Below are positions 47,523-64,000 of a stretch of 64,000 bases of DNA, in pieces (the stretch's first letter is position 1; the number at the start of each line of letters is the position of its first letter). A program made the translations under genes and the position numbers. A model generated the notes under the pieces. That model saw nothing but the letters and a program-made list of their open reading frames with translations. It searched no databases and was not told where the DNA came from. The DNA comes from Guptibacillus hwajinpoensis (lineage in GTDB: Bacteria; Bacillota; Bacilli; Bacillales; Guptibacillaceae), in NCBI RefSeq assembly GCF_001039475.1, contig NZ_LELK01000004.1, positions 960,330 to 1,024,329 of the forward strand, given 5' to 3'.

Positions 47523-50500
47523 ATGAATAGAAGGAAAGATATTTTAAATGCTTGGATTACTATAGAGCAACTATCAGAAGGTTCTATTAATAAAAAAGAC
47601 AAATCACTAAAGTCTATACATATAAAAGAGGAAGACTGGAATGAATTTTTTTCAGACTTTTTAACCGAACAAAAAGAACAACAAAATGTATCAGATAAGT
47701 TCTTTAAGAAATCGGGTTTAGTATTATATTTTGATATTTTCAATTTTCAAGAAGTTGTTGATATATTGAGGGAGAAATACAATATTACTAAAACTTACGA
47801 AGAAGTTAGTAACTCTGACAATTTCACCTTCTCTATATATTTTGATAACCAATTAAATTTTATAGCAGACAAATTGTTCTTTACAATGAGTGGTTATATC
47901 CACCAGCATGGTTATTTTCCGAAAGATATTATAAAAGTTGAAAACTCATTTAGAGAAGATTTAAATAGGAAATTTAATGAGGATTTTAATACCACACTTT
48001 CTGAAATTTTACAAAAGTATAATATTTCTACAGAAAATTTTCGCTATGCATTTGTGAAAAACTTGGATAATGGAGATGCAAATTTACATTCGTTTTTTAT
48101 TGAAGATCTAAATAGAGCAAAGACAATTACTAATAAAAATTTGAATCGATATTTTAATGGCTTTTCTGGAAATAAGAAAAATCTGGATGGTAATAATGAA
48201 TCAATTCATTTTAACTCACATATTTTCGAGACAATTTTACAACCTAAGTTTTATCCGTTGGGTCGGTTCCCAAGTAAACCAGATTATGCGCTTTCGTTCA
48301 TGCAACAGGTTGCGGTAAATCTAGCTTTAAATGATAAAAATGATATTCGAAGTGTCAATGGGCCACCAGGAACAGGGAAAACAACACTTTTAAAAGACAT
48401 ATTTGCTGATTTAGTAGTACAACAGGCAGTAGAAATTTTGCAGCTTTCTGATAAAAGTATTCAAGGTAGTCTAGTTTATTGGCGAAATGCTAAACTTGGT
48501 GTTTTACCGCATACCATTTCAGATAAGAATATTATTGTTGCAAGTTCAAACAATGGAGCAGTTCAAAACATTGTTAAGGAGTTGCCAAAAAAGGAAGAGA
48601 TTGCTGACAATTTTCAAAGTCAACTTGAGGAAGCGAATTATTTTAAAGATATTTCTAATTCTAAACTAACCGGTGAAGGTTTCGGAAAGAATCGAGAGAT
48701 TAAAAGTGAGCTTTTAAATGAGGAAAATTGGGGTGCATTCTCGTTAGAAGGTGGAGCATCAACAAACATTAACAAGTTACTTTTAAATATTGAAGTAATT
48801 GAAAAAGATTTAGAAGAAAATTATCAAGCAAATGCAGGTGTAAGTGTATATCAGGAATTCTCACGTCTCTACGATGAATTAATAATTGAAAGAGAAAAAA
48901 TTCAAGAATATAATGAGAAAATGTATTCTCTTAGAAAATTAAAAACCAAGCATAAGGAGCAAGCAGTTGCTGTTGAACAAGAAGAAAAGAAGAAAAAAAC
49001 AAATTTGATTTCACAGCAAGAAGAAGCGAATCGTGAACTTGAAAGACTGAGACATGAAAGCGTAAATCTCCAAAAAGATTTATCGAATGGTTCCATTAAA
49101 ATAAAAGAATTAACTAATGTACAAGCTCAAGCTGAAAGGAATTATCATGTAGTTATTTCACAAAAGCCAAGTTTTTTATGGTTTCAGAAAATATTTAATA
49201 GGTCGAGAGTTAAGCATTATTTTAAAAATCTCAATAATACTAATTATCATTTAAACTATCTTTTTCAACAAAAGACTAAATTGTTGAATGATCATATGCA
49301 ACTCGAAAAAAAGTTAAAAGGGATTGTTGCAAAAAGTGAGTATGCTCAAAAACAAATTCAGGAAACCAAAGCTGACTTTGACCGGTGGAGGACTACTCAA
49401 CAAAATGAAATGAAGAAATTGGAACAAGAAATTGCGTTTTTGGAAAAACTCAAACTCCAAAGTGATATAAATGAACTAGATTTTTCACTTTCATATGACG
49501 AACTTCAAAAGGCTAATCCATGGTTTACCAAGCAGATACGTATTTTACAATCAGAGTTATTTATTTCGGCCTTAAAAGTTAGAAAGCAATTCCTGTATGA
49601 AAATAGAAAGAGTTTGAAAGCAGCAAGGATTATTTGGAATAAACAGTCTGAATACATTGGAAAAGAGAATGGACATCAGTTGATTTCAGAATCTTGGCAA
49701 TGGTTAAATTTCACTATCCCTGTTGTCAGTACTACTTTTGCTAGTTTTGGTAGAATGTTTAAAAACCTAAATGAAAATTCAATTGGTAATCTATTCATAG
49801 ATGAGGCTGGTCAAGCATTACCACAAGCCAGTGTTGGCGCAATTTTTAGAAGTAAGAAGGTTATGGTTGTTGGAGATCCATCACAAATAAAACCAGTAAT
49901 GACGTTAGACTCAAATGTTCTGAGCTTGATAAGAAGATTTTACAAAGTTGATGAAATGTTTGTCTCTGCTGATGCATCTACTCAAACAATTGTGGATGCC
50001 ACAAGTCAGTATGGTTTCCTAAAAAATGATGATGAATGGATTGGTATACCACTTTGGGTACACAGACGTTCGAACTATCCAATGTTTACGATTTCAAATG
50101 AAATCTCTTATGATGGGCTGATGGTACAAGGTAAGTTAGAAGATGAATCACAAGGTAAATCGCAATGGTACGATTCAATCGGCAAAGCAAATGACAAATT
50201 TGTTAAAGAACAAGCTGACTTACTGAAAAGTCTCATTGATAAACGTTTGCAGGGAGATCCAGGTTTAGCAGAAGAAATCTATGTTATATCCCCATTCAGA
50301 AATGTGGCTTATAAACTTGCACAAGTTTTAGACAGTATTAACTTCACCAAACGAGAAAACGATAAAATAACAAATATTGGAACTGTTCATACTTTTCAAG
50401 GGAAGGAAGCAAAAATTGTCTATTTTGTTCTTGGAGCGGACTCTAATAACAGTGGATCAGCAAGATGGGCTGTTGCTGATCCAAATATGATGAATGTTGC

Positions 50501-50618
50501 AGCTACAAGAGCTAAAGAAGAATTTTATGTTATAGGCGACAAGAAATTGTATGCTTCACTTGGAAGTGATGTGGCAAATAAAACGATTTCGATTATGCAT
50601 GATTATAATAGTAATTAA
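47523..50618 (+). CDS. Large superfamily 1 helicase-like ATPase with internal coiled coil
   Basis: A 1031-residue protein of the Upf1/Dna2 (AAA_11/AAA_12) helicase type. Walker A is GPPGTGKTT at about residue 280. A long charged coiled-coil region (about 420-660, rich in E, K and Q) splits the ATPase core. Walker B is LFIDEAGQ at about 757, motif III GDPSQIKPV at about 785, motif V TVHTFQGKE at about 954 and motif VI NVAATRAKEE at about 990. The N-terminal 230 residues match nothing I know. GGGGAGAG precedes ATG 47523. It is clearly AT-richer than the core genes, with frequent AAA/AAT/TTA codons, which suggests horizontal gain. A role in phage defence or nucleic-acid repair is plausible, not shown. 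Confidence 0.85.
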   Translation: MNRRKDILNAWITIEQLSEGSINKKDKSLKSIHIKEEDWNEFFSDFLTEQKEQQNVSDKFFKKSGLVLYFDIFNFQEVVDILREKYNITKTYEEVSNSDNFTFSIYFDNQLNFIADKLFFTMSGYIHQHGYFPKDIIKVENSFREDLNRKFNEDFNTTLSEILQKYNISTENFRYAFVKNLDNGDANLHSFFIEDLNRAKTITNKNLNRYFNGFSGNKKNLDGNNESIHFNSHIFETILQPKFYPLGRFPSKPDYALSFMQQVAVNLALNDKNDIRSVNGPPGTGKTTLLKDIFADLVVQQAVEILQLSDKSIQGSLVYWRNAKLGVLPHTISDKNIIVASSNNGAVQNIVKELPKKEEIADNFQSQLEEANYFKDISNSKLTGEGFGKNREIKSELLNEENWGAFSLEGGASTNINKLLLNIEVIEKDLEENYQANAGVSVYQEFSRLYDELIIEREKIQEYNEKMYSLRKLKTKHKEQAVAVEQEEKKKKTNLISQQEEANRELERLRHESVNLQKDLSNGSIKIKELTNVQAQAERNYHVVISQKPSFLWFQKIFNRSRVKHYFKNLNNTNYHLNYLFQQKTKLLNDHMQLEKKLKGIVAKSEYAQKQIQETKADFDRWRTTQQNEMKKLEQEIAFLEKLKLQSDINELDFSLSYDELQKANPWFTKQIRILQSELFISALKVRKQFLYENRKSLKAARIIWNKQSEYIGKENGHQLISESWQWLNFTIPVVSTTFASFGRMFKNLNENSIGNLFIDEAGQALPQASVGAIFRSKKVMVVGDPSQIKPVMTLDSNVLSLIRRFYKVDEMFVSADASTQTIVDATSQYGFLKNDDEWIGIPLWVHRRSNYPMFTISNEISYDGLMVQGKLEDESQGKSQWYDSIGKANDKFVKEQADLLKSLIDKRLQGDPGLAEEIYVISPFRNVAYKLAQVLDSINFTKRENDKITNIGTVHTFQGKEAKIVYFVLGADSNNSGSARWAVADPNMMNVAATRAKEEFYVIGDKKLYASLGSDVANKTISIMHDYNSN

Positions 50619-50799
50619 ATGAGAATTTAATGTATTGAATATGCAATTAACACTGGAGTAGAAATAGATTTTCATCTTACATATGGAGTTATATAGGTAG
50701 TTGTTTCCGAATTAAATTCTTATACCTAGCATCTTTTTGAGGTGAACTAATTGAGCAATATCTAGGTTATTTGAGACCAAAATCTTAAGTCAAACATAT

Positions 50800-50839
50800 A
50801 AGAAAAGAGTAACTGTGACGTTACAGTTACTCTTTTCTT
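50800..50839. terminator. Bidirectional terminator
   Basis: A 17-bp perfect stem, AAGAAAAGAGTAACTGT (50800-50816) with ACAGTTACTCTTTTCTT (50823-50839), lies between the convergent helicase and MazG genes. Confidence 0.9.
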
Positions 50840-51060
50840 ATTAGATAGTAATTTGTGAAATTTGCAACACTTGGAAAATAGAAAACTTATTTAGATACAC
50901 CACAGAGAGCCATATCACAAGTTATGATGATGGTAAACAAGACAGGTTACTAGTCCCGCCAAGGATTATGGTATAAATCATAGTGGGAACGGTCTCCCTG
51001 TGTTTCTCCGTGCCTTGTTTAATAGGAATTGAAACACATTAGAGAGGAAGTATCCACCTC
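50840..51060. other. Structured non-coding remnant between the convergent defence-like genes
   Basis: The stretch has partly self-complementary arms: AAACAAG (50935) with CTTGTTT near 51020, and ATTATG...CATA in the centre. GGGAACGGTCTC (50985-50996) is a degenerate form of the REP-like motif. GAAGTATCC near 51050 pairs with GGATACTTC at 51068-51076, overlapping the mazG stop codon. I see no gene. Confidence 0.45.
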
Positions 51061-51363
51061 TTAACCAACCGGATACTTCTTGCCATTCTTAACCATCTTC
51101 TCTTCTACAATTTCTATAACATCTAAGTCTAAATCAGAACAAAGCATCAACGAATAGATCAAGACATCCGCGATTTCTTCACGGATGTTTTCTTTGTTTT
51201 CTTTTAGAGCCTCTTCGCTATTGATCCATTGAAAGTCTTCTAGTAATTCGGCAGCTTCAATGGATATAGAAATGGCGAGATCTTTAGGGTTATGATACTG
51301 TCTCCAGTTTCGCTCGTCTCTAAATTCGTTAACTAAAGTAATTAATTTTTGTATATCGCTCAT
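51061..51363 (-). CDS. MazG-like nucleotide pyrophosphohydrolase
   Basis: A 100-residue all-alpha NTP pyrophosphohydrolase of the small MazG/dCTPase type, probably acting on canonical or modified (d)NTPs. The metal-binding motif is present: EAAELLEDFQW and then NIREEIADVLIYSLML (the ExxE...ExxD pattern). ATG 51363 shares ATGA with the stop codon of the upstream GIY-YIG/DUF2075 gene, so translation is coupled. Some such enzymes deplete or sanitise nucleotides during phage or stress response. The frame is open further upstream but the ATG at the overlap is the best start. Confidence 0.88.
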   Translation of the reverse strand: MSDIQKLITLVNEFRDERNWRQYHNPKDLAISISIEAAELLEDFQWINSEEALKENKENIREEIADVLIYSLMLCSDLDLDVIEIVEEKMVKNGKKYPVG

Positions 51364-53009
51364 GATTTTTTGCACCTTTCTAAATCGAATAATCGTTTTC
51401 TCAATGCAGGGTCGGTTGCGTAAATGTAAAGACCATGAATTCCTCTTTTCATCAATACATTGATGGAATTTAAGATGATTTCTTCCTTTATTTCTTGATT
51501 TTTTTCAATTGAAAAGTCCTGGCGTGAGGTGAACGCGCCGGTATCTTTATATTTGGAAGGGTGTATGACTAGCTCGTCTTTTTCTTCATCATAGCCAACG
51601 GAAGGCCCAAGTACAACTCCTACATAGTTCAGGTCAAATCCTTGAACAGTATATATGGAGCCGACTTCTTTAATGGAATCTTGGTTTTCTGCCCAAGCAA
51701 CATTATTCTGTGTGTTGTTCCAAGGCATGTTAATGCCTTCTTTATCCACTATGTAAATTTCCTTATCTTTTTTGTGTAAGTAATCAAAAGTTGAGACAAT
51801 ACGAGATAAACCAACTTTGTTATTTTTATTTTGAATCGCCGTTTTAAACGATTCAGCATCATTAAATATTTTTAGCTCAAAAGAAGACTCGGTCTCTGTA
51901 GTCGGCAATGCAATGATTTTTTTGGCTACAAATTGATCAATCCAGTTGATGGTTTCAGGAGGAGCGTTCATTCTCATTTGGTCTGTTAGCTTTACGGTTT
52001 TACTAGAATACTGGTTTGAAATTTCCTCAAGTAATCCGTCGTTCCAGTAACTTTTAATTTTCAATACTTGTTTTGGATCAAAAATGACAATCGTTATTTT
52101 ACTTCTTTTAATGATTTCATCGAGGTGATTATTATAATTGAAATTATTATAGGTGTCTTCTTTCGTCAACAGCAGATGAGCTTCATCTATTAATGCAATA
52201 TCAGCTGTTGTCCCTTGTCTAGTTTTCTCATTAATAAACGGTGTTGGTCTCATAAGACTCTTTTTCTTAATGTTTGGCAAGCTGTTGGCAATACTTTTAT
52301 AAGTCTTCAGCATCTCACCATTATTCACTAGTAAGTAATTATCAGTTCCAAATAAAAGAGAGCTATTATCCTTGGATAAATCCTGAAGAGTATTAAACAA
52401 AGAACTTAATAGTACACTTTTACCTGTCCCAGCATCACCTTCAATAGTAATAACATGGTTGCCTTCCTTTTGGATATATTCCTTACAGAAGTCAAGGACT
52501 TCGCTCTTAATATCAAGTTGCAAATGCGAAAGTTCCTTATAAGGAGATAGTTTATAAATATCTTTATTTCTAAGATTCTCAAGTGTATCGCTTACTATAT
52601 TTTCATTGAGAAGCTTCTCCCAAATATCGTGAAAAAGATCCTCGTTATAAAAGGGTTTCTCATAGTAATTGTGCATTACTCTAGAGCTAGTCTGGCTTAC
52701 ATTTTGTAATTGGAAGTGGTTATCAGCGATAAAATAGTTAATTAAATTTGTTTCGATATTATAAGTTGCTGATTGATTAAACTTCTTATGGCCAATTAAA
52801 ATAGAGCGATTCAAATTCTTTCTTTTTTTATTCTCTAAATGAGTTTTTATCCTTCTTCTAGCTTGTACAGTTTGACCAATATATGCTGAAGGTCTCTTTT
52901 TTTCGTTGTATAGAATATATACAATTGGAAAATTATTTAGGTGTACTGACTTCATGATAGTATCAGAATTAGGAGTGAAATCGTCCTTCTCAAATATTAA
53001 TTCATTCAT
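51360..53009 (-). CDS. GIY-YIG nuclease fused to a DUF2075 (Schlafen-like) ATPase/helicase
   Basis: A 549-residue fusion. Residues about 28-100 form a GIY-YIG nuclease-type domain: VYIL (30-33), AYIGQT (42-47), basic RRRIK after it, and a candidate catalytic Glu86 in NIETN. Residues about 155-545 form a DUF2075 P-loop NTPase: Walker A GDAGTGKS (191-198), Walker B ALIDEAHLLL (DEAH 275-278), LTDQMRMN, and VGSIYTVQGFDLNYVGVVLG. This architecture occurs in phage-defence contexts. It ends in an ATGA overlap with MazG. AT-rich codon use matches the helicase gene. The nuclease activity is inferred. Confidence 0.87.
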   Translation of the reverse strand: MNELIFEKDDFTPNSDTIMKSVHLNNFPIVYILYNEKKRPSAYIGQTVQARRRIKTHLENKKRKNLNRSILIGHKKFNQSATYNIETNLINYFIADNHFQLQNVSQTSSRVMHNYYEKPFYNEDLFHDIWEKLLNENIVSDTLENLRNKDIYKLSPYKELSHLQLDIKSEVLDFCKEYIQKEGNHVITIEGDAGTGKSVLLSSLFNTLQDLSKDNSSLLFGTDNYLLVNNGEMLKTYKSIANSLPNIKKKSLMRPTPFINEKTRQGTTADIALIDEAHLLLTKEDTYNNFNYNNHLDEIIKRSKITIVIFDPKQVLKIKSYWNDGLLEEISNQYSSKTVKLTDQMRMNAPPETINWIDQFVAKKIIALPTTETESSFELKIFNDAESFKTAIQNKNNKVGLSRIVSTFDYLHKKDKEIYIVDKEGINMPWNNTQNNVAWAENQDSIKEVGSIYTVQGFDLNYVGVVLGPSVGYDEEKDELVIHPSKYKDTGAFTSRQDFSIEKNQEIKEEIILNSINVLMKRGIHGLYIYATDPALRKRLFDLERCKKS

Positions 53010-54571: not shown

Positions 54572-54601
54572 TTGCAATTATGTATGCGGTTACAATATAA
54601 T
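54572..54601 (+). promoter_or_regulatory. Sigma-A promoter of the sulfoquinovose operon
   Basis: TTGCAA (54572-54577), an 18-nt spacer, and TATAAT (54596-54601) precede the first gene by 58 nt. Confidence 0.65.
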
Positions 54602-54624
54602 GTGTTAAAAGGTTATGATGTTTT

Positions 54625-54644
54625 CGTAAACGTTATTACTTATG
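54625..54644 (+). promoter_or_regulatory. Candidate operator of the sulfoquinovose operon
   Basis: GTTATTACTTATG (54632-54644) is repeated exactly at 59230-59242, upstream of the isomerase gene. The 5' side here, CGTAAACGTTATTA (54625-54638), resembles a cre site with two mismatches. It lies between promoter and ribosome binding site, where a repressor would block elongation. The GntR protein of the operon is the natural candidate. Confidence 0.5.
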
Positions 54645-54659
54645 GGTGGAGGGATTAAT

Positions 54660-55349
54660 ATGATTGATGTGTTAAAAGAATTGAATCAGCATCTCGAGTT
54701 AGAAAGCGTACATAATCATTCATTCTTACCTTATGGTGGAGTTCTTTATGATTTTCCTTATGATGAAATGGCCAAACGAATGGATATGACAGTTATCCCT
54801 GAAGAAGGTAACCAATACGTTCCTTCTTTTAAAGAGCTAGAAGATGAAGCTCTCAAAAGATTCGTTGAAAAACGCTATTATGGTGGGATGCCTGTTCAAA
54901 TAGGTTACTGTAATGGAAAAAATTCTTCGCTCGGCGGTCTTGAGTTTCACAAAGGAAGTGAAATAAACGTAGCCGTAACCGATTTCGTGTTATTACTTGG
55001 TCATACAAATGATATTGTCGACAATAGCTACGATGTGAGGAAGATCAAGGCATTCTTTGTTCCATCAGGAACTGCGATTGAAATGTATCAAACCACACTT
55101 CATCTTGCGCCTTGCAAAGTGAGGGAAGATGGTTTTAAATGTGCGGTGATTCTGCCAAAGGGAACAAACATGCCTCTACAAGAAGAAGAAAAAGCATTCG
55201 ACCCACTTCTCTTCATGAGGAATAAGTGGCTACTTGCCCATCGAGAACATGAGCGGTTCATGAATCAGGGAGCACATGACGGCATTATCGGTGAAAACCT
55301 AACTCTTGCATACCCGAGTAAAGAACAAAGGAGGAAATTGAATGTCTAG
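54660..55349 (+). CDS. DUF4867 cupin-like protein of the sulfoquinovose operon
   Basis: A 229-residue soluble protein of the DUF4867 family. Two segments look like cupin metal sites: LEFHKGSEINVAVTDFVLLLG (about residues 99-119) and FFVPSGTAIEMYQTTLHLAPC (about 138-158). Family members occur in sugar and sulfosugar clusters; the biochemical role is not settled, and an isomerase, mutarotase or lyase step is possible. ATG 54660 with GGTGGAGGGA is chosen over the in-frame ATG 54642. It overlaps the symporter start by 8 nt, so it belongs to the operon. Confidence 0.82.
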   Translation: MIDVLKELNQHLELESVHNHSFLPYGGVLYDFPYDEMAKRMDMTVIPEEGNQYVPSFKELEDEALKRFVEKRYYGGMPVQIGYCNGKNSSLGGLEFHKGSEINVAVTDFVLLLGHTNDIVDNSYDVRKIKAFFVPSGTAIEMYQTTLHLAPCKVREDGFKCAVILPKGTNMPLQEEEKAFDPLLFMRNKWLLAHREHERFMNQGAHDGIIGENLTLAYPSKEQRRKLNV

Positions 55350-57123
55350 CATCACTTTTACACTAGTCTCATGCGTTTTTTTCATGGCACTCGTCGCCTG
55401 GGTCTCTTATTTAAAAACAAGAAATTCAGTTGATGATTCGGATGGGTATTTTCTGGCAGGTCGTGGGTTAACAGGGGGGTTCATCGCTGGTTCTCTCCTA
55501 CTTACAAACTTATCAGCTGAACAGCTCATCGGATTAAATGGACAAGCTTATCGAACCAATTTATCCAATATGGCATGGGAAGTTACGGCAGCTTTTGCAA
55601 TTGTAATTATGGCTCTGATTTTACTTCCGCGTTATTTAGGCGGTGCCTTCTCTACGCTTCCTGAATTTCTAAGTAAACGATATGATGAAAGCGTTCGTAG
55701 ATACACAGTAATTCTATTTATGCTAGGATACGTGTTCGTCACGATCCCTTCTGTTTTATACTCTGGTGCACTTGCGATCTTGAGATTGTTTGATGTTCCT
55801 GGCCTGTTTGGAATCTCATTCGAATCATCTGTTTGGGTCGTTATTTGGGTGATTGGAATTATCGGTGCTATCTACGCAATCTTTGGTGGATTGAAAGCGG
55901 TTGCGGTTTCGGATACGCTAAATGGAATCGGCCTTCTTTTCATAGGTTTAATTGTTCCTGTGTTAGGGTTCTTCGCTCTAGGTGATGGAGATTTTCTACA
56001 AGGAATGAAGACGATTGCAACTGAAAATCCTGAGAAGTTAAACTCAATCGGATCGAGTACCGACTCCGTTCCGTTCTCAGCGATCTTTACCGGTATGATT
56101 TTTATGAACATGTTCTACTGGGGCACAAATCAGTACGTAATTCAACGTACACTTGGTGCGAAGAACCTTGCTGAAGGACAAAAAGGTGTACTCCTTTCAG
56201 GTTTCTATAAGCTAACCGTTCCGTTCATGATGATGATTCCTGGTGTCATTGCATTTCATCTATATGGAAGTTCGATGGACCCTGTCGATCTTGCGTATCC
56301 AACTGTCGTATCGAACTTGCTACCAACCTTTATGTCGGGTTTATTCTTAGCTGTTCTTCTTGGTGCGGTATTCTCAAGTTTTAATTCACTATTAAATAGT
56401 GCAGCAACAATGTTTGCACTTGATGTGTACAAAGCTGGCATTAACAAAGACGCGACTGATCGTCAGCTTATCAATGTAAGTAAATATTTTGGAAGCGTTC
56501 TCGCGCTCGTGTCGTTCTTCATCGCACCGATGTTGATGAACGCGCCAGATGGTCTATGGGACCTCATCCGACGCTTTACTGGATTCTTTAACATTCCGAT
56601 CATTGCGATCGTACTTGTAGGTATCATGTCAAAACGCATTCCAGCGCTAGGTGCTAAGATTGCAATCATATTCCACGTCATCACATATTACATGCTCGTG
56701 TGGGGCTTAACGCAGCTGTTCGGTATCGAAATTACTATGAACTTCATTCACATCTCAGCGATTCTCTTCCTAATCGAGGTAGCAATCATGATGGTTGTTG
56801 GTCGCATTCGTCCGCTTAAAGAAGCGTATCAGTTCCGTGCGAATCCGAAGGTCGACATGGTGCCATGGAAATACACCATGCCCGTTGCGGTTGTTCTTAT
56901 CAGTCTTGTCGTGATGGTTTATATCCTGTTCTCACCAATCGGTGTTGCGTATGCTGATGGGATCGTATCAGGTTGGTTCTGGCCATCTATTATTGGAACA
57001 ACGATCGTAGGAACATTGTGCTACGTACTTGCTCTCAAATCTTGGAACAAAAAATATACAGGCTATGTAACGCGTAAGCACGAAGAAGCCGTTGAAGTAG
57101 ATAAAAAGTTTAGAAGTGCATAA
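55342..57123 (+). CDS. Solute:sodium symporter, SSS family (predicted sulfoquinovose/sulfoquinovoside uptake)
   Basis: A 593-residue transporter with about 14 helices. Features of the SGLT/YidK group include GYFLAGRGLTGGFIAGSLLLTN with the Na+-site region, NLSAEQLIGLNGQAY, FGGLKAVAVSDTLNGIGL, and the sodium motif ending GAVFSSFNSLLNSAATMF. Its position between DUF4867 and the sulfoquinovosidase points to import of sulfoquinovose or its glycosides with sodium. AAAGGAGG precedes ATG 55342. Specificity is inferred from context. Confidence 0.88.
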   Translation: MSSITFTLVSCVFFMALVAWVSYLKTRNSVDDSDGYFLAGRGLTGGFIAGSLLLTNLSAEQLIGLNGQAYRTNLSNMAWEVTAAFAIVIMALILLPRYLGGAFSTLPEFLSKRYDESVRRYTVILFMLGYVFVTIPSVLYSGALAILRLFDVPGLFGISFESSVWVVIWVIGIIGAIYAIFGGLKAVAVSDTLNGIGLLFIGLIVPVLGFFALGDGDFLQGMKTIATENPEKLNSIGSSTDSVPFSAIFTGMIFMNMFYWGTNQYVIQRTLGAKNLAEGQKGVLLSGFYKLTVPFMMMIPGVIAFHLYGSSMDPVDLAYPTVVSNLLPTFMSGLFLAVLLGAVFSSFNSLLNSAATMFALDVYKAGINKDATDRQLINVSKYFGSVLALVSFFIAPMLMNAPDGLWDLIRRFTGFFNIPIIAIVLVGIMSKRIPALGAKIAIIFHVITYYMLVWGLTQLFGIEITMNFIHISAILFLIEVAIMMVVGRIRPLKEAYQFRANPKVDMVPWKYTMPVAVVLISLVVMVYILFSPIGVAYADGIVSGWFWPSIIGTTIVGTLCYVLALKSWNKKYTGYVTRKHEEAVEVDKKFRSA

Positions 57124-57147
57124 TTAATTAGGTTGTAGGAGGCGTTT

Positions 57148-59193
57148 ATGTTGAGAACACAAGAAGTTCAAAATGTATTTGAAGTGAATCAACAGGGAGA
57201 AGAGTTCAACGTTCAACTCGATGGTCGTTTATTGTTCAAGCATTCTCCAGCAAAACCATTCATATTTGTTGGCAGTGGTGAAGAGACGATCGATATGTAC
57301 AGAGGAAATTTCAAAATAAAAGATTACGTGGTTGAGAGAGTTGCACTTCGTTATGCAACAGTAAGACATGAGGGAGAAACGTGCCGGATCGCATTCCGTC
57401 ACTTCTCCCACGATCACGAACTCCTTACGATGGTACTGAAAAAAGATGGAGAAGGTCTACGCGTTTCGTTTGAGCTAGTCGATCCTCTATTTAATCGTTT
57501 CTGGGTCCGGGTCGCTGCAGACGAGAGCGAGAAAATCTATGGCTGTGGTGAACAGCTTTCCTACTTTAACCTGCGAGGAAAGAACTTTCCACTGTGGACC
57601 TCAGAGCCTGGGGTTGGAAGAAACAAATCAACGTACACGACTTGGCAGGCTGACGTGAAAGATCAGGCTGGAGGAGATTACTATAATACGAACTATCCTC
57701 AGCCAACCTACGTATCTACGAATAAATACTTCTGTCATGTTGAGACAACAGCGTTTGCAGATTTCGATTTTCAGCGAGGTGATTTCCACGAGCTACACAT
57801 TTGGGAAGCACCAGCGTCGATTCTTTTTGAAACGGGTGAGTCGTATAAAAGTTTAGTAGAGAAGCTAACCGCTCGTCTGGGAAGACAGCCTGAGCTTCCA
57901 GACTGGACGTTCGATGGTATCTGGCTTGGTATGCAGGGTGGAACGGAGATCGTTCAGGAAAAAATTGATCGCGCGCTAGAGAAAGGGATGAAGATCGGGG
58001 CGCTGTGGTGCCAGGACTGGCAAGGGAAACGTGAAACTTCGTTCGGTAAGCGCCTTATGTGGAATTGGAAATGGAACCCTGAGATGTATCCTGAACTAGA
58101 CCAGAAAATCAAAGAGTGGAAGCAGCAAGGAATCAAATTTCTCGGCTACATTAATCCGTATGTTGCAGTTGAAGGACACCTTTATAAAGAAGCATATGAA
58201 AAAGGATACCTTGCGACATCACTCGATGGAAGCGATTATGTTGTAGACTTCGGTGAGTTCGATTGTGGCGTGGTAGATTTTACGAATGAAGATGCGTGTG
58301 AATGGTATCAGAACGTAATCAAAGAAAATATGATTGATTTTGGTATGGACGGCTGGATGGCTGACTTTGGTGAGTATCTCCCGACAGACCTTAAGCTTCA
58401 TAGCGGAGAGTCCGCAACAATGATGCATAATGCATGGCCAGTGATGTGGGCGAAGGTCAATCATGACGCTGTAAAGAAAGCCGGTCGCTGGGGCGATATC
58501 GTTTACTTCATGCGTGCGGGTTATTCCGGAACGCAAGGATATTGTCCACTGCTTTGGGCAGGAGATCAGAGTGTGGATTGGAGTCTTGATGATGGTCTCG
58601 CATCCGTTATTCCGGCTGCACTTTCTGCTGGGATGAGTGGAAACGGAGTTCATCATAGTGACATCGGTGGCTACACCAGCCTTCATGGGAACAAGCGAGA
58701 CAAAGAGCTTCTGCTTCGCTGGGTCGATATGGCTGCCTTTACACCAGTGATGCGTTCACATGAAGGAAATCGCCCGGGTGATTGCTGTCAGTATGATCAT
58801 GACGAGGAAACGCTGAATCATTTTGTGAAGATGACGAACGTATTCACGACGTTAAAGCCTTATTTAAAAGCACTCACGAAAGAAAATGCTGAGAAAGGAA
58901 TTCCGATGCAGCGTCCATTATTTATGGAATATGAAAACGACAAGAAAGCTTATGATATCAAGTATCAATACATGCTCGGATCTGATCTTGTGGTCGCACC
59001 TGTTTATGAAGAAGGAAAGGACAAGTGGAGTGTCTATTTGCCTGAAGATGAATGGGTTCACTTCTGGAGCGGAAAAGAGACGAATGGCGGAACGGTTGAA
59101 GTTGATGCACCGCTTGGAGAAACGCCAGTCTTTTATCGTAAAAACTCTTCATATGGGGAGCTTTTTAAAGAAGCTGCCAAAAGGAAATGGTGA
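57148..59193 (+). CDS. Sulfoquinovosidase (GH31)
   Basis: A 681-residue glycoside hydrolase family 31 enzyme that releases sulfoquinovose from its glycosides. Known E. coli YihQ residues, as I recall them, map here with an offset of one: Gln289 (CQDW), Arg302 and Trp305 (KRLMW, sulfonate recognition), nucleophile Asp406 (MADFGE), acid/base Asp473 (WAGDQS) and Tyr509 (GGYTS). Ordinary GH31 alpha-glucosidases lack the Arg/Trp pair. No signal peptide is seen, so cleavage is cytoplasmic after uptake. AGGAGGC precedes ATG 57148. Confidence 0.93.
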   Translation: MLRTQEVQNVFEVNQQGEEFNVQLDGRLLFKHSPAKPFIFVGSGEETIDMYRGNFKIKDYVVERVALRYATVRHEGETCRIAFRHFSHDHELLTMVLKKDGEGLRVSFELVDPLFNRFWVRVAADESEKIYGCGEQLSYFNLRGKNFPLWTSEPGVGRNKSTYTTWQADVKDQAGGDYYNTNYPQPTYVSTNKYFCHVETTAFADFDFQRGDFHELHIWEAPASILFETGESYKSLVEKLTARLGRQPELPDWTFDGIWLGMQGGTEIVQEKIDRALEKGMKIGALWCQDWQGKRETSFGKRLMWNWKWNPEMYPELDQKIKEWKQQGIKFLGYINPYVAVEGHLYKEAYEKGYLATSLDGSDYVVDFGEFDCGVVDFTNEDACEWYQNVIKENMIDFGMDGWMADFGEYLPTDLKLHSGESATMMHNAWPVMWAKVNHDAVKKAGRWGDIVYFMRAGYSGTQGYCPLLWAGDQSVDWSLDDGLASVIPAALSAGMSGNGVHHSDIGGYTSLHGNKRDKELLLRWVDMAAFTPVMRSHEGNRPGDCCQYDHDEETLNHFVKMTNVFTTLKPYLKALTKENAEKGIPMQRPLFMEYENDKKAYDIKYQYMLGSDLVVAPVYEEGKDKWSVYLPEDEWVHFWSGKETNGGTVEVDAPLGETPVFYRKNSSYGELFKEAAKRKW

Positions 59194-59209
59194 TGAAGAA
59201 GAATGAAAG

Positions 59210-59249
59210 GTAATAACCTATTTAAAAAGGTTATTACTTATGATATAGT
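59210..59249 (+). promoter_or_regulatory. Inverted repeat and candidate operator before the isomerase gene
   Basis: GTAATAACCT (59210-59219) is a perfect inverted repeat of AGGTTATTAC (59228-59237) across 8 nt. The right arm starts the 13-nt word GTTATTACTTATG shared with 54632-54644, and TATAGT (59244-59249) is a possible -10 box. It may be an internal promoter controlled by the operon's GntR regulator. Confidence 0.5.
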
Positions 59250-59286
59250 GTGTGTAACGAACAGCTAAGAAAGGTTGTGACCAATC

Positions 59287-60633
59287 ATGCCAAAAACGAG
59301 CATTTTATACGTACCGATCGGAAGAAAAACATTTGATCTTGAAGCGGGTGAAGTTCAGAGAAAGAAAAGCTCTGAATTTCTCCACAGCGTAACAGAGAAC
59401 GTTATTGAACCAGAGGGAATCATCACGTCTCCGGAGGATCTTGAAAAGTTTCTTGAAACCGTTAACAGTGAAGAAATTATCGCAAGCATCTATCAAAGCG
59501 TCACATTCGCGGATGGGGAATTTGTTGAAGCGCTCATTAAAAAGGTAGACGACGCACCAGTTATCGTTTGGTCTGTTAGAGAACCGAGTGTTGGCGGAAG
59601 GTTAAGACTGAATTCACTTACTGGTGGAAACAGCACAAGCCATGTTCTCCGCTGTGCGAAACACCCGTTCAGCTTTGTATTTGGAAATGCAGACGAAGCA
59701 CAGGTTCAAAAGCGTGTGAAGGTTCAACTCAAAGTTCAGAAAGTAATCGAAGATCTGAAAGGCCTACGCATCGGTGTTATCGGAGAGCATCCTCCAGGCT
59801 TCTTCTTCTCAGGAACAGATGAAGAAGCGCTTCATAAACAGCTTGGGGTAACGGTGAAAAATTTTGATCTCAACAAAGCGTTTGAAGAATGTGTGAAGCT
59901 TCCTCGTGAAAAATGGGAAGGGGCGATTGAACGAGCTGAGCAACAGGTAATCGGCCTTAACCGCAATGAAGAAACGGTTCAACGTTTCGCTCAGTTCACT
60001 ACATATGTTCAGGAGAAGATCGATGAAGCAGATGTATCGGCACTTGCGATACGCTGCTGGCCAGACTTTTTCAATGAACTTGGCGCAGCTGCTTGTTCGA
60101 CACTTTCTCAGTTCACCGAAGATGGTGTGGTGTCGTCATGTGAATCAGATATTCACGGCTCTGTTTCCATGTTCATCCTTCAGCAGTTAACAGGAAGCGC
60201 ACCGTATCTTGGTGACATGGTACATGTGAATGAAGCAAGTAACTCTGTTGTGTTCTGGCACTGCGGGGCAGGAGCATATTCACTAGCACACCCTGATCAA
60301 GGAGCAAAACCAGGGGTGCATCCGAACCGTAAGCTTGGCTTTACGATGGAATTTGGTTTAAAGCCAGGTCGCGTGACGATGTTCCGTGTTGGGTACACAC
60401 CAGATGGTTACCGCCTTCTCGTAATGAGAGGAAACGCACTCGATACACCGCAGCGTTTCAACGGAACGTCAGTAGAAGTAGAGCTAGAAACAGAAATTAA
60501 CGATACGTTGTACGGATTGATGGAAGAAGGCTTCGAACCGCACTATGCGATCGTTTATGATGATGTGGCTGACGAGTTAGTCGAGCTTGGAAAACAGCTA
60601 GGACTAAAGACCACTGTCTATACAAAGAACTGA
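59287..60633 (+). CDS. Fucose/arabinose-isomerase-family protein, predicted sulfoquinovose isomerase
   Basis: A 448-residue protein with the L-fucose isomerase architecture: an N-terminal domain, a central domain and a C-terminal catalytic domain. GLRIGVIGEHPPGFFFSG, ALAIRCWPDFFNELGAAACS, SSCESDIHGSVSMFIL (candidate metal ligands Glu and Asp in the CESD segment) and VVFWHCGAGAYSLAHP (His) are typical. In this operon it most likely converts sulfoquinovose to 6-deoxy-6-sulfofructose. That job is done in E. coli by the unrelated YihS, so this would be the sulfo-EMP2-type isomerase. Preceded by the 59210 inverted repeat. Confidence 0.82.
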   Translation: MPKTSILYVPIGRKTFDLEAGEVQRKKSSEFLHSVTENVIEPEGIITSPEDLEKFLETVNSEEIIASIYQSVTFADGEFVEALIKKVDDAPVIVWSVREPSVGGRLRLNSLTGGNSTSHVLRCAKHPFSFVFGNADEAQVQKRVKVQLKVQKVIEDLKGLRIGVIGEHPPGFFFSGTDEEALHKQLGVTVKNFDLNKAFEECVKLPREKWEGAIERAEQQVIGLNRNEETVQRFAQFTTYVQEKIDEADVSALAIRCWPDFFNELGAAACSTLSQFTEDGVVSSCESDIHGSVSMFILQQLTGSAPYLGDMVHVNEASNSVVFWHCGAGAYSLAHPDQGAKPGVHPNRKLGFTMEFGLKPGRVTMFRVGYTPDGYRLLVMRGNALDTPQRFNGTSVEVELETEINDTLYGLMEEGFEPHYAIVYDDVADELVELGKQLGLKTTVYTKN

Positions 60634-60647
60634 AGGGAGTGGGGTGC

Positions 60648-61811
60648 ATGAAGAAGGTTGCCGTTGGCCAGGCCGGGGGACCTACGGCCGTAATCAATGC
60701 TACTCTCGCAGGGTTTGTAAAAGAGGTTGAACGCGATCACTCCCTGCTTTTTATTAAGAATGGCTATGAAGGATTAGCAAAAGGAAGCTACTATGAATGC
60801 GATAAGGAGATGTTGAAGAGCATTTCCCTTCATCGCGATGTACCAGGTGCGTGCCTCGGTTCAGGACGCTTCCCTCTTACGGATGACCACATTGAAAGTG
60901 GCGTTCGTCGACTGAAAAAAGAGGGTGTAGATGCGCTCGTTTTTATTGGCGGGAACGGCACGATGGAGGCACTGAAAAAAATAGATAGAGAAGCAAAAAA
61001 GCAACAATACCCTTTGCAGGTGTTAGGACTTCCGAAAACGGTCGACAATGATCTCGGTGAAACGGATCATGCACCTGGATTCGGAAGTTCGGCAAGGTAT
61101 GTTGCACAGGCGACGAGAGATATGAGTCGTGATCTTGCATCGATGAAGAATTTTGAAAAGGTACGCGTGCTCGAGACGATGGGAAGAAATGCTGGCTGGT
61201 TAGCTGCTGCCTCAGGGCTACTTCAACAGTATGATGAAGAAGGCCCGCACGTTATCGCGATTCCAGAACGCCCGCTAAAGAAGGAGACCCTTTTAGAAGG
61301 TGTAACGAATGCCCTTAGTCGCTACGGCCATGCGACTGTTGTTGTGAGTGAAGGCGTGACTTGGAGTGAAGGGTCACAGGTACAACGAGAAATCGTCGAT
61401 GGGAGACCGGTTCTTGGTGGTATCTCAAATGAAATCGCAGCGTTTTTGAAAAAAGAATGCAATGTGATGACGAGAGCAGAGCTTCTCGGAATGAATCAGC
61501 GCAGCTTTTCAGCCGTTGTATCTGACATCGATCGCGAAGAAGCTTATACTGTAGGTAGAGTTGGTGCAGAATGGATTCGTGATGGATTGTCCAATGTGAT
61601 GGTTTCGATCACTCGTCATTCCCACCATCGATATACTGCTCGTATGATTCCCGTTCAGCTTGAGGATGTTGTAAAAGCGGGCGAACGTGTCATGCCAGAG
61701 CAGTTCATCCAGAATCGAAAGCTGTACTATGAGTGGTTGAAGCCGCTGATAGGAGAGGATGTGTCAATCTATCCTCCACCGCTAAAAGGAGACGAAGTAT
61801 ATGTCGAATGA
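60648..61811 (+). CDS. PFK-family kinase, predicted sulfofructose kinase
   Basis: A 387-residue protein of the phosphofructokinase (PfkA) superfamily. AVGQAGGPTAVINATLAG starts the fold, ALVFIGGNGTMEALK is the nucleotide-site loop, PKTVDNDLGETDH holds the catalytic Asp region, and ETMGRNAGWLA is the signature of the family. Where ATP-dependent enzymes have GGDGS, this has GGNGT: the metal-contacting Asp is replaced by Asn. It likely phosphorylates 6-deoxy-6-sulfofructose at C1. ATG 60648 (RBS AAGGGAG) is chosen over GTG 60639. It overlaps the regulator gene by 11 nt. Confidence 0.85.
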   Translation: MKKVAVGQAGGPTAVINATLAGFVKEVERDHSLLFIKNGYEGLAKGSYYECDKEMLKSISLHRDVPGACLGSGRFPLTDDHIESGVRRLKKEGVDALVFIGGNGTMEALKKIDREAKKQQYPLQVLGLPKTVDNDLGETDHAPGFGSSARYVAQATRDMSRDLASMKNFEKVRVLETMGRNAGWLAAASGLLQQYDEEGPHVIAIPERPLKKETLLEGVTNALSRYGHATVVVSEGVTWSEGSQVQREIVDGRPVLGGISNEIAAFLKKECNVMTRAELLGMNQRSFSAVVSDIDREEAYTVGRVGAEWIRDGLSNVMVSITRHSHHRYTARMIPVQLEDVVKAGERVMPEQFIQNRKLYYEWLKPLIGEDVSIYPPPLKGDEVYVE

Positions 61812-62529
61812 ACAGTTTACTAAAGGTGAAGCACTCTACCTACAAATAAAAGATATCTTAATCGATCGTATTCAAAATGGCTCGTGGAAAGCAAACGAAT
61901 TGATTCCTACCGAACAGGAATTAATTAAAGAATTTGGGGTGAGTCGGACAACGATACGCCAGGCAATCACGGTCCTTGTACAAAACGGTCTACTTGAAAA
62001 GAAACAGGGGCGAGGTACGGTCGTGAAACCGCAACAGCTCGTTGGAAATCTCGGGCAGCTAAAAGGTTTCGCAGAGGAAGTGATGGAGCGCGGATCTGTT
62101 CCACGATCGAAACTGATTCGAGCTGAATTCAAAACGAACCTTTATCACGAAAGGGAAATGCTTCAAGTGCCTGAAGATGCGCCTATACTATTAATAGAAA
62201 GAATCCGTTTTTCAGATGATACGCCTGTTGCACTCGAGCGAAGCTGCTGGCCAGAAGAAATTGGGCAACTTTTAATGAAGCATGATTTAAATGAAGCGAA
62301 GTATTATGAAATCTTGGAGAACGATCAAATCTACTTAAATCGCGCAAACGAACGCATCGCGGCTATGAATGCGACGATCGATGAAGCAGATTTGCTTGCG
62401 ATTCGACCTGGGGAAGCGTTGCTCGAGATGACGCGTCTAAGCTACGGACTAAATGATCATCCGATGGAATACACAAGAACGAAATATAGAAGTGATCAGT
62501 ACCACTATCATATTGAACTGAAACGATAA
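61801..62529 (+). CDS. GntR/HutC family transcriptional regulator
   Basis: A 242-residue regulator. The N-terminal GntR winged helix (LIPTEQELIKEFGVSRTTIR and QAITVLVQNGLLEKKQGRGT) is followed by a UTRA effector domain (LLIERIRFSDDTPVALERSCWP, ending HPMEYTRTKYRSDQYHYHIELKR). HutC-type members usually repress carbohydrate genes and release on binding a phosphorylated sugar; sulfofructose phosphate or free sulfoquinovose would be logical here. It is embedded in the operon it probably controls, overlapping the kinase gene. Candidate operators lie at 54632 and 59230. Confidence 0.92.
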   Translation: MSNEQFTKGEALYLQIKDILIDRIQNGSWKANELIPTEQELIKEFGVSRTTIRQAITVLVQNGLLEKKQGRGTVVKPQQLVGNLGQLKGFAEEVMERGSVPRSKLIRAEFKTNLYHEREMLQVPEDAPILLIERIRFSDDTPVALERSCWPEEIGQLLMKHDLNEAKYYEILENDQIYLNRANERIAAMNATIDEADLLAIRPGEALLEMTRLSYGLNDHPMEYTRTKYRSDQYHYHIELKR

Positions 62530-62545
62530 GAAGGGAGCATATCAC

Positions 62546-63439
62546 ATGCCATTTATTGATGGAAAAACGATGCTTGACCACGCTTTTCAAAACGGATACG
62601 GAGTAGGTGCGTTCAGCGCACATAACGCAGAGACGGTTGTTGCAATCTTGGAGGCGGCGCATGAAGAAAAAGCCCCTATCATGATTCAGGTGGGGCAAAA
62701 GGTCATCCAAACACTTGGAATGGAAGCTTTGAAAGGACTTATCGATACGTACGAAAAAGACTACAACGTGCCGGTCGCAATCCACCTCGATCATAGTCGT
62801 CAGTTCGAACAAACGATGCAAGCTGTTCAAATGGGCTTTCAGTCTGTTATGTTCGATGGCTCTGGTCTTTCATTCGAAGAGAATACCACTACAACGAAAA
62901 AAGTTGTTGATATCGCACGAGCACTTGGCATTGGATCAGAAGGTGAAATTGGTAAGATCGGTGGTACTGAGGATGACATCACGGTCGATGAAAAAGATGC
63001 ACTAATCACGTCGACTGAAGAAGCGGTTTCATTCGTTGAGGCAACGGATGTTGATTATCTTGCTGTCTCGATCGGAACGGCACATGGCATCTATAAACAA
63101 ACGCCGAACCTTCGCTTTGATCGCTTAAAAGAAATCGTAGACGCGGTAAAACGCCCGGTTGTTCTTCACGGAGGCTCTGACGTACCAGATGCGCAAGTAC
63201 AACGTGCGATTTCACTTGGAATTGCGAAGATTAACGTGGATACAGAACTTCGTCAGGCATTTACAAGAGGCGTACAAGAAGCATTTGCTGAGAATCGTGA
63301 TGATATCGTACTTGCAAGCACACTGGGACGCGGTCGAGAGCGTATGAAGGAGAAAGTTCAGGAGAAGATTCGTGTATTTGGTAGCCAGAACAAGGCAGAA
63401 GAACTTTTAACAAACAAAAAGGTCATTACCATTTCCTAA
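62546..63439 (+). CDS. Class II aldolase, predicted sulfofructose-1-phosphate aldolase
   Basis: A 297-residue zinc-dependent TIM-barrel aldolase of the fructose/tagatose-bisphosphate type. Zinc ligands are in HLDHSRQFEQ, SIGTAHGIYK and VVLHGGSDVP, and the conserved EGEIGKIGGTEDD follows. Within this operon it would split 6-deoxy-6-sulfofructose 1-phosphate into dihydroxyacetone phosphate and 3-sulfolactaldehyde. E. coli does this with a class I enzyme (YihT), so the family differs. AGAAGGGAG precedes ATG 62546. A tagatose- or fructose-bisphosphate role is the alternative. Confidence 0.87.
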   Translation: MPFIDGKTMLDHAFQNGYGVGAFSAHNAETVVAILEAAHEEKAPIMIQVGQKVIQTLGMEALKGLIDTYEKDYNVPVAIHLDHSRQFEQTMQAVQMGFQSVMFDGSGLSFEENTTTTKKVVDIARALGIGSEGEIGKIGGTEDDITVDEKDALITSTEEAVSFVEATDVDYLAVSIGTAHGIYKQTPNLRFDRLKEIVDAVKRPVVLHGGSDVPDAQVQRAISLGIAKINVDTELRQAFTRGVQEAFAENRDDIVLASTLGRGRERMKEKVQEKIRVFGSQNKAEELLTNKKVITIS

Positions 63440-63455
63440 GGAGGATGATGAATCG

Positions 63456-64000
63456 ATGAGTACACAAACTTCAGTACGTACATATGGCTTGTACATTAAT
63501 GGCGAATGGCGGGAGAAATCACAGACGGACGATGTATTGAATAAGTACACACAAGAAGTAAGTGCAAAAACAGCGGCAGCTGAAAAACAGGATGTAATTG
63601 ACGCAGTTGACTCGGCTAAAAAAGCATTAAAGATACCTTTCTCACCATATGATCGCTATAGTGTATTGATTAAGGCAGCGGCTACGCTTCGTGCACGTCA
63701 AGATGAGCTTGGTGAAGTACTCGCGAAAGAAGTTGGAAAACCACTTGCTGAGTGTAAGGGGGAAGTCGGACGTGCGGCCCTGACGCTTGAAGTATCTGCT
63801 GAGGAAGCAAAACGCATCCACGGTGAAGGCGTTCCTGTTGAAGCAGCACCAGGATCTGAGAAGCGTCAGGCATTTACAAGACGTTTTCCGATCGGTGTTG
63901 TAGCCGCAATCACACCATTTAATGTTCCACTAAATCTTGTTTGTCATAAGATTGGACCAGCAATCGCAGCTGGAAACAGTGTTGTATTGAAACCAGCAGA
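63456..64000 (+). CDS. Aldehyde dehydrogenase, 3' end cut off (predicted sulfolactaldehyde dehydrogenase)
   Basis: The frame is open from ATG 63456 (preceded by AAGGAGGATG) to the window end, 181 codons without a stop. The start GLYINGEWREKS, then FPIGVVAAITPFNVPLNL and HKIGPAIAAGNSVVLKPA are characteristic of the ALDH superfamily. Following the aldolase in a sulfosugar operon, it most likely oxidises 3-sulfolactaldehyde to sulfolactate with NAD(P). The catalytic cysteine lies beyond the window. Substrate is inferred from context. Confidence 0.88.
   Translation, partial: MSTQTSVRTYGLYINGEWREKSQTDDVLNKYTQEVSAKTAAAEKQDVIDAVDSAKKALKIPFSPYDRYSVLIKAAATLRARQDELGEVLAKEVGKPLAECKGEVGRAALTLEVSAEEAKRIHGEGVPVEAAPGSEKRQAFTRRFPIGVVAAITPFNVPLNLVCHKIGPAIAAGNSVVLKPA

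Follow-up and report, generated by a model that had tools for sequence, protein, structure and literature searches.

The stretch of DNA analysed here (64,000 nucleotides of Guptibacillus hwajinpoensis, contig NZ_LELK01000004.1; hereafter the window) ends in a sulfoquinovose operon of nine genes, all on the + strand, which begins at position 54,660 and runs past the last base of the window (64,000). These are, in order, sqvB (encoding a DUF4867 protein), a gene for an SSF-family symporter, a GH31 gene, sqvD, sqiK, gntR, sqiA, slaB and a gene for an AEC-family permease. An earlier reading of the same DNA, made from its letters and open reading frames (the sequence-only reading), had named the first eight, and all of them are indeed present on the + strand in the order that it gave. 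The ninth was invisible to it because it lies beyond 64,000. As the window covers positions 960,330–1,024,329 of a genome of 4.26 Mb in 14 contigs, the DNA past its end could be read, and the inspection for export genes recommended by that reading revealed the AEC-family permease behind slaB.

Briefly, sqvB (or sftX; 54,660–55,349) encodes a DUF4867 cupin (PF16161, E = 7e-76), putatively a ring-opening or mutarotase protein acting on sulfoquinovose (SQ) or sulfofructose (SF). The second gene (55,342–57,123) encodes an SSF-family Na+/solute symporter (PF00474; NF007790, 729 bits) and the third (57,148–59,193) a GH31 sulfoquinovosidase of the YihQ/SftG type, as judged from Pfam, NCBIfam and solved-structure matches as well as from its residues. 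They are followed by sqvD (or sftI; 59,287–60,633), for an SQ isomerase of the FucI/AraA fold, sqiK (60,639–61,811), for a SF 1-kinase of the phosphofructokinase (PFK) family with a substrate assigned by orthology and position, gntR (61,801–62,529), for a GntR/UTRA regulator of the HutC type and predicted repressor, and sqiA (62,546–63,439), for a class II SF-1-phosphate aldolase. The window holds the 5′ part of slaB (63,456–64,000), which encodes a sulfolactaldehyde (SLA) dehydrogenase (PF00171) of 477 aa, the whole gene lying at L003:13786–15219. The AEC permease gene (L003:15288–16202; PF03547), outside the window, follows slaB in the same direction, and the next gene, for a PIG-L domain protein, is on the opposite strand. 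The start of sqvB is most likely the ATG at 54,660, as in the sequence-only reading, rather than the ATG proposed by the open reading frame lister (54,642), because the latter overlaps the ribosome-binding site (GGTGGAGGG, 54,645–54,653), the position of which fits the later start. The G+C content of the operon is 44.6%, vs. 39.8% in the rest of the window.

For comparison, named genomes were scanned for SqvD, which yielded 51 loci, each examined over about 10 kb around SqvD; some of them are cut by contig ends, and all presences given below are thus lower bounds. SqvD of the window passes the NCBIfam model for sulfoquinovose isomerase (NF048012) at 810 bits (cut-off 700) and the FucI family profile (PF02952) at 31.2 bits (cut-off 29.3). 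Since a phmmer search of SqvD against solved structures returned nothing up to E 0.1, fold comparison was used in its place: an AlphaFold model built from 20 sequences (predicted local distance difference test, pLDDT, 89.7) is placed by Foldseek closest to L-arabinose isomerases (template modelling score, TM, up to 0.84), which rank above the L-fucose isomerase of E. coli (1fui, TM 0.79).

The GH31 protein finds its best solved matches in 8r56 (1,080 bits), 6pnr and YihQ (5aed, 906 bits). Altogether, six YihQ-type sequences match it at 819–1,080 bits, while the next GH31 enzyme scores 172 bits, which disposes of a glucosidase or xylosidase devoid of the Arg/Trp pair, the outcome that the sequence-only reading had named as fatal to its proposal. 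Residues 214–674 align with YihQ 213–673, gap-free in those rows, hence at the uniform offset of one noticed earlier, and the recognition and catalytic residues expected from YihQ are all in place (Q263, Q289, R302, W305, D406, D473, Y509) and invariant in 33 of 33 proteins (window plus 32 loci). Among them, we take D406 and D473 to be the catalytic Asp pair and R302, W305 and Y509 to bind the sulfonate, the YihQ residue numbers other than Asp405 being those that we assume to be in use. In the excerpts of PMC11968277, Asp405 of YihQ is named and 6pnr is given as SftG of E. rectale.

In the DUF4867 protein, E101, H103, E107 and H154 (counted from the ATG at 54,642) are invariant in 45 of 45 sequences and spaced like the metal ligands of B. 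megaterium SqvB, reported as Glu97, His99, Glu103 and His150 (PMC11968277, in part). Ring opening has been proposed for this family (PMC9594981, section 9, seen as an excerpt). The protein occurs in 32/32 loci with GH31 vs. 12/19 loci without it, a post hoc count over loci of which some are truncated; this fits a job on the alpha-SQ released by GH31. As for the remaining enzymes, SqiA matches PF01116 (326 bits, E = 3e-97), with H80, D82, D104, E134, H180 and H208 among the residues invariant in 37/37 proteins, and SlaB carries F155-N156-V157, H164, N280 and C286. The same residues are described for SlaB of B. megaterium, where His/Asn replace the Arg pair of the Rhizobium enzyme (excerpts of PMC10599462). 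The enzyme of the window has the His/Asn of aerobic Bacilli, and not Arg/Arg, at the proposed sulfonate positions; H164 is present in 45 and N280 in 42 of the 45 aligned proteins.

Taken together, the operon very probably encodes a complete sulfo-EMP2 (Embden–Meyerhof–Parnas) pathway, and the route from sulfoquinovosides to sulfolactate put forward by the sequence-only reading agrees with these sequence tests. In the scheme that we propose, the Na+ symporter would bring in SQ or its glyceride, GH31 would hydrolyse the glycoside to alpha-SQ, and SqvB may accelerate its ring opening. SqvD would then isomerise SQ to SF, SqiK would phosphorylate SF to SF-1-phosphate, probably with ATP, and SqiA would split the latter into dihydroxyacetone phosphate (DHAP), bound for glycolysis, and SLA, which SlaB would oxidise to sulfolactate with a gain of NAD(P)H. 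Finally, the AEC permease would probably export sulfolactate, while the GntR/UTRA protein would sit on two palindromes (see below) and be released from them by binding of SQ or SF to its UTRA domain. The genes with their order, families and diagnostic residues, as well as the palindromes and where these occur, are read directly from the sequence; the substrates, the direction of transport, the effector, the binding to the operators and the phosphoryl donor used by SqiK are predictions.

The export step is suggested by gene association: the AEC permease is found in 35/44 loci with SlaB and in 0/7 without it (Fisher p 1e-4, uncorrected for relatedness), and its gene adjoins that of SlaB in 33 of the 35 loci. 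Because of this co-occurrence and adjacency, the permease is probably a sulfolactate exporter, its substrate and direction being deduced from its company. Three Paenibacillus loci that lack AEC have an SBF-family permease in its place (Pfam-tested in L031 only). An apparent SlaB–AEC fusion (L040:12168–14591), which if genuine would have argued strongly for export, was rejected, since its translation has a stretch of unknown residues in the middle, the mark of an assembly gap.

With respect to regulation, an alignment of the upstream region of the window with those of 11 close loci reveals a conserved promoter, then a palindrome. The main promoter, detected on the + strand (10/12 matches) by a consensus scan that overall yields fewer promoter-like sites than shuffles do (14 vs. 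20.5), consists of TTGCAA (54,572–54,577), a spacer of 18 nt and TATAAT (54,596–54,601); TATAAT is conserved across the alignment, and the first hexamer less so in L013–L015. Ten bases past the −10 box starts a 28-bp palindrome, GTTATGATGTTT-TCGT-AAACGTTATTAC (54,612–54,639), which ends ahead of the ribosome-binding site of sqvB and which palindrome tests likewise single out as candidate operator 1. A second copy, GTAATAACCTAT-TTAA-AAAGGTTATTAC, lies in the gap between the GH31 gene and sqvD (59,210–59,237) and has counterparts in close loci (candidate operator 2). The first hexamer of an internal promoter candidate on the + strand (TTTAAA-17-TATAGT, with TG before the second hexamer; 59,221–59,249; consensus match only, 9/12) falls within operator 2; this candidate is weak, given that promoter-like matches in the region are fewer than expected by chance (14 vs. 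a mean of 20.5 in shuffles).

The palindrome is confined to the operon in its own genome and tracks the operon in the genus. When up to three mismatches were allowed over the 4.26 Mb, the two operon places matched with none and three other places only with three, while a backward-read control gave 3 and 3 matches. At one mismatch at most, it was found in 12 of the 14 genomes of the genus, which are exactly those with SqvD (this genome included), and in neither of the other two, with no control matches. A palindromic matrix was then built from 12 first sites (window and L005–L015) and applied to 40 held-out loci, a hit being counted when the site lay no more than 150 nt ahead of the start of a listed gene or 60 nt past it. 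The top site fell in this zone in 23/40 loci vs. 2.8 expected by area, whereas 50 column-permuted palindromic matrices reached 3.9 on average and 8 at most; with 350 nt allowed upstream, the figure rose to 28/40 vs. 5.7 expected. A refined matrix (56 sites, none of them second sites of L005–L015) put its two best places before the first gene and 77–95 nt before sqvD in 11/11 close loci, with scores of 20.2 or more, the next best reaching 16.3 or less. Lastly, among 299 genomes of the order, ten contain the strict pattern without mismatch, and every one of them belongs to this genus.

How far do alternatives account for these data? That the operon might degrade a related sulfosugar or its glycoside, such as sulfofucose, and still end at the same sulfonate, draws on the range of FucI-family isomerases, which presumably act on several sugars, and on a sulfofucose pathway described in Paracoccus (PMC12421959, in part). 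We nevertheless deem it very improbable, as the GH31 enzyme has the YihQ residue set, SqvD exceeds the equivalog cut-off for sulfoquinovose isomerase and the gene set is orthologous to the characterised one of Alkalicoccus urumqiensis. Two observations nonetheless weigh against parts of the proposed route: a search by others for mutarotation by a DUF4867 protein detected none (excerpt of PMC11968277), and the best named model of the SSF symporter (NF007790), a probable importer of SQ or SQ-glyceride judging by its position, is a general one. A further question is whether SqiK uses pyrophosphate (PPi) instead of ATP. The protein matches PF00365 at 182 bits, its best solved relatives are the PPi-dependent phosphofructokinases 3hno and 3k2q, and it passes the PPi-PFK subfamily model NF010675 (340 bits, cut-off 273); moreover, Lys133, aligned with Gly124 of E. 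coli PfkA, is present in 40/40 proteins (window plus 39 loci) and is shared with 3hno and 3k2q. Yet Gly107, aligned with PfkA Gly104, is also found in 40/40 proteins, vs. Asp in 3hno and 3k2q; opposite PfkA Asp103, 39/40 have Asn (PfkA numbers as we assume them to be). Asp or Gly at the Gly104 position, together with the residue at Gly124, sets the phosphoryl donor in PFKs. Because of this Gly, SqiK is probably an ATP-using enzyme of PPi-type ancestry, and PPi as its donor appears unlikely.

Concerning control, the GntR protein, with its GntR helix-turn-helix (PF00392) and UTRA (PF07702) domains, is the sole regulator among the operon genes, and we consider it likely that it represses the operon through the two 28-bp palindromes. 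Site 1 lies behind the −10 box, a position where a bound protein would be expected to block transcription. At face value, GntR might instead be an activator or control another target, with the palindromes belonging to another regulator, all the more as GntR is missing above threshold in 4 of the 51 loci. Several other findings also count against a two-site GntR operator. At one mismatch at most, just 2 of the 12 genomes of the genus show both sites, the second site in the rest becoming visible only with the looser matrix (named loci); in 17/40 held-out loci the best palindrome is outside the 150-nt zone; among the genomes of the order scanned, the strict pattern is in none outside the genus, though G020, G044 and G050 carry SqvD, and outside the genus the palindrome is found only by the looser matrix; and the loci in these counts are related, not independent. 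From the 17 loci without a top site in the zone and the restriction of the strict pattern to the genus, it appears that the site drifts. All the same, a palindrome that follows the operon within the genus, is confined to it in its own genome and sits in a repressor-site position, in an operon with a single regulator gene, leaves activation or another target as a minority prospect compared with repression by GntR.

If GntR is the repressor, what does it sense? In 10 loci of the sulfo-TAL (transaldolase) type, GntR is 62–71% identical to that of the window; in five of them (L036, L039, L041, L042 and L052), the region ahead of the transaldolase gene holds palindromes that rank among the top three sites. 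An effector common to both pathways would be SQ, SF, SLA or sulfolactate, and not SF-1-phosphate, because the TAL route makes none. As sugars and sugar phosphates are frequent ligands of UTRA domains, SQ or SF is the most likely. Altogether, and with rather less assurance than for repression itself, we lean towards a dedicated sulfosugar sensor with a two-site operator kept across Bacillaceae genera and a change of pathway, combined with an AEC exporter of sulfolactate and a PPi-type PFK turned ATP-type.

The distribution of genes across the 51 loci shows that parts of the operon are swapped as modules. GntR is found in 47 loci, DUF4867 and SlaB in 44 each, SqiK in 39, SqiA in 36, AEC in 35, GH31 in 32, SSF in 26, Gfo/Idh/MocA proteins and ABC importers in 21 each, and transaldolase in 11; in 18, all nine genes are present and arranged as here. 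With SSF in 26/51 and GntR in 47/51 loci, neither Na+ symport nor an in-operon GntR sets a Bacillaceae host apart, contrary to the suggestion of the sequence-only reading. Importers divide into SSF only (22 loci), ABC only (17), both (4) and neither (8), and glycosidases into GH31 only (28), SqgA-like only (17), both (4) and neither (2). SqiK and SqiA occur without transaldolase in 35 loci, transaldolase without them in 10, and all together in a single one (L032, Paenibacillus alkaliterrae), where a transaldolase-cluster gene accompanies SqiK and SqiA and parts of TAL and EMP2 are thus combined; the transaldolase cluster is absent from the close kin L005–L015. The Gfo/Idh/MocA protein of L028 is best matched by 8qc2, 8qc3 and 8zn9, which we take to be NAD-dependent sulfoquinovosidases (SqgA).

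Other arrangements were also encountered. L017, L018, L019 and L021 have the two modules next to each other: the main operon contains SSF and GH31, and its neighbours are an ABC importer and a SqgA-like gene. In L024, L027, L028 and L048 (Virgibacillus, Lentibacillus), SqvD–SqiK–GntR come with an ABC importer and a SqgA-like gene, without SlaB (above threshold) and DUF4867, L027 (contig-cut) and L048 also being without SqiA; each of the four holds a gene of one cluster, the L028 member of which is a PALP-family, threonine-synthase-like protein. In a non-Firmicutes bin (L053, a metagenome-assembled genome of Dysgonamonadaceae), SqvD (41% identity) lies beside DUF4867 with a SqgA-like gene, and SqiK, SqiA and the transaldolase cluster were not found in that stretch. 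Finally, upstream of the operon, the window encodes a large helicase-like AAA protein (47,523–50,618, + strand; best PADLOC match MkoC, 228 bits) and, at 51,061–51,375 and 51,360–53,009 (both − strand), a GIY-YIG and Schlafen-group-3 helicase protein and a MazG-like protein; the genes at 47,523–53,009 possibly form a defence island.

Sulfoquinovose is the sulfur sugar of plant leaves. It is reported to rank among the organosulfur compounds that are most abundant in nature (PMC12890257, in part), and knowing which Bacillaceae hold a complete route, its switch and an exit for its product helps to predict which of them release sulfolactate, while the palindrome offers a testable handle on the regulation of sulfoglycolysis in Firmicutes. 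The locus is orthologous to the published system of A. urumqiensis, and the pathway itself is already known; what is likely added here is the candidate palindromic operator, the putative AEC exporter of sulfolactate and the proposed donor switch of SqiK, none of which was met in the portions of the sulfoglycolysis literature examined. Those pairing sulfoquinovose with GntR (including PMC10991401) contained nothing on a Firmicutes GntR site, and the excerpts of PMC13219744, PMC13372026, PMC8397734, PMC11659671 and PMC11489063 refer neither to an SSF importer or an AEC exporter nor to a GntR site; the exporters described there are of other or unstated families, together with one SQ-induced repressor candidate, in Faecalicatena.

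Among known systems, sulfo-EMP2 has been characterised from Bacillus (Alkalicoccus) urumqiensis (excerpts of PMC9594981 and PMC12890257). In strain BZ-SZ-XJ18 (L046), DUF4867, GH31, SqvD, SqiK, GntR, SqiA, SlaB and AEC are in the same order as here, with identities of 40%, 64%, 60%, 45%, 66%, 67%, 59% and 44%, respectively, but AEC is set apart by about 800 nt and, past it, the other strand carries an ABC importer, whereas the operon of the window has its SSF symporter inside. Halobacillus faecis NBRC 103569 (L019) shares all nine genes and their order with the operon described here and, in contrast to it, has a Gfo/Idh/MocA (SqgA-like) gene and an ABC importer close by; its DUF4867 neighbourhood is figured among sulfoglycolytic ones, with the pathway unspecified (PMC11968277, Fig. 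4C, in part). The closest match of SqvD in a named genome is that of Alkalihalobacillus algicola AmN0-13 (99%). The sulfo-TAL clusters of Bacillaceae (L034, L035, L039 and others) share DUF4867, GH31, SqvD, GntR, SlaB and AEC, but a transaldolase (PF00923) replaces SqiK and SqiA, and no PF00923 match was obtained among the nine operon proteins. In contrast, the sulfo-EMP pathway of E. coli (yih) has a homologous GH31 sulfoquinovosidase and the same intermediates up to SLA (PMC9594981, in part), while its isomerase, kinase and aldolase are of other families, namely YihS (PF07221), YihV (PF00294) and YihT, a class I aldolase (same excerpts). As the sequence-only reading had foreseen, PF07221, PF00294 and class I aldolase are not among the Pfam matches of the nine operon proteins. 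The two routes also differ in their last step: in E. coli, SLA is reduced to dihydroxypropanesulfonate (DHPS), whereas here it would be oxidised to sulfolactate.

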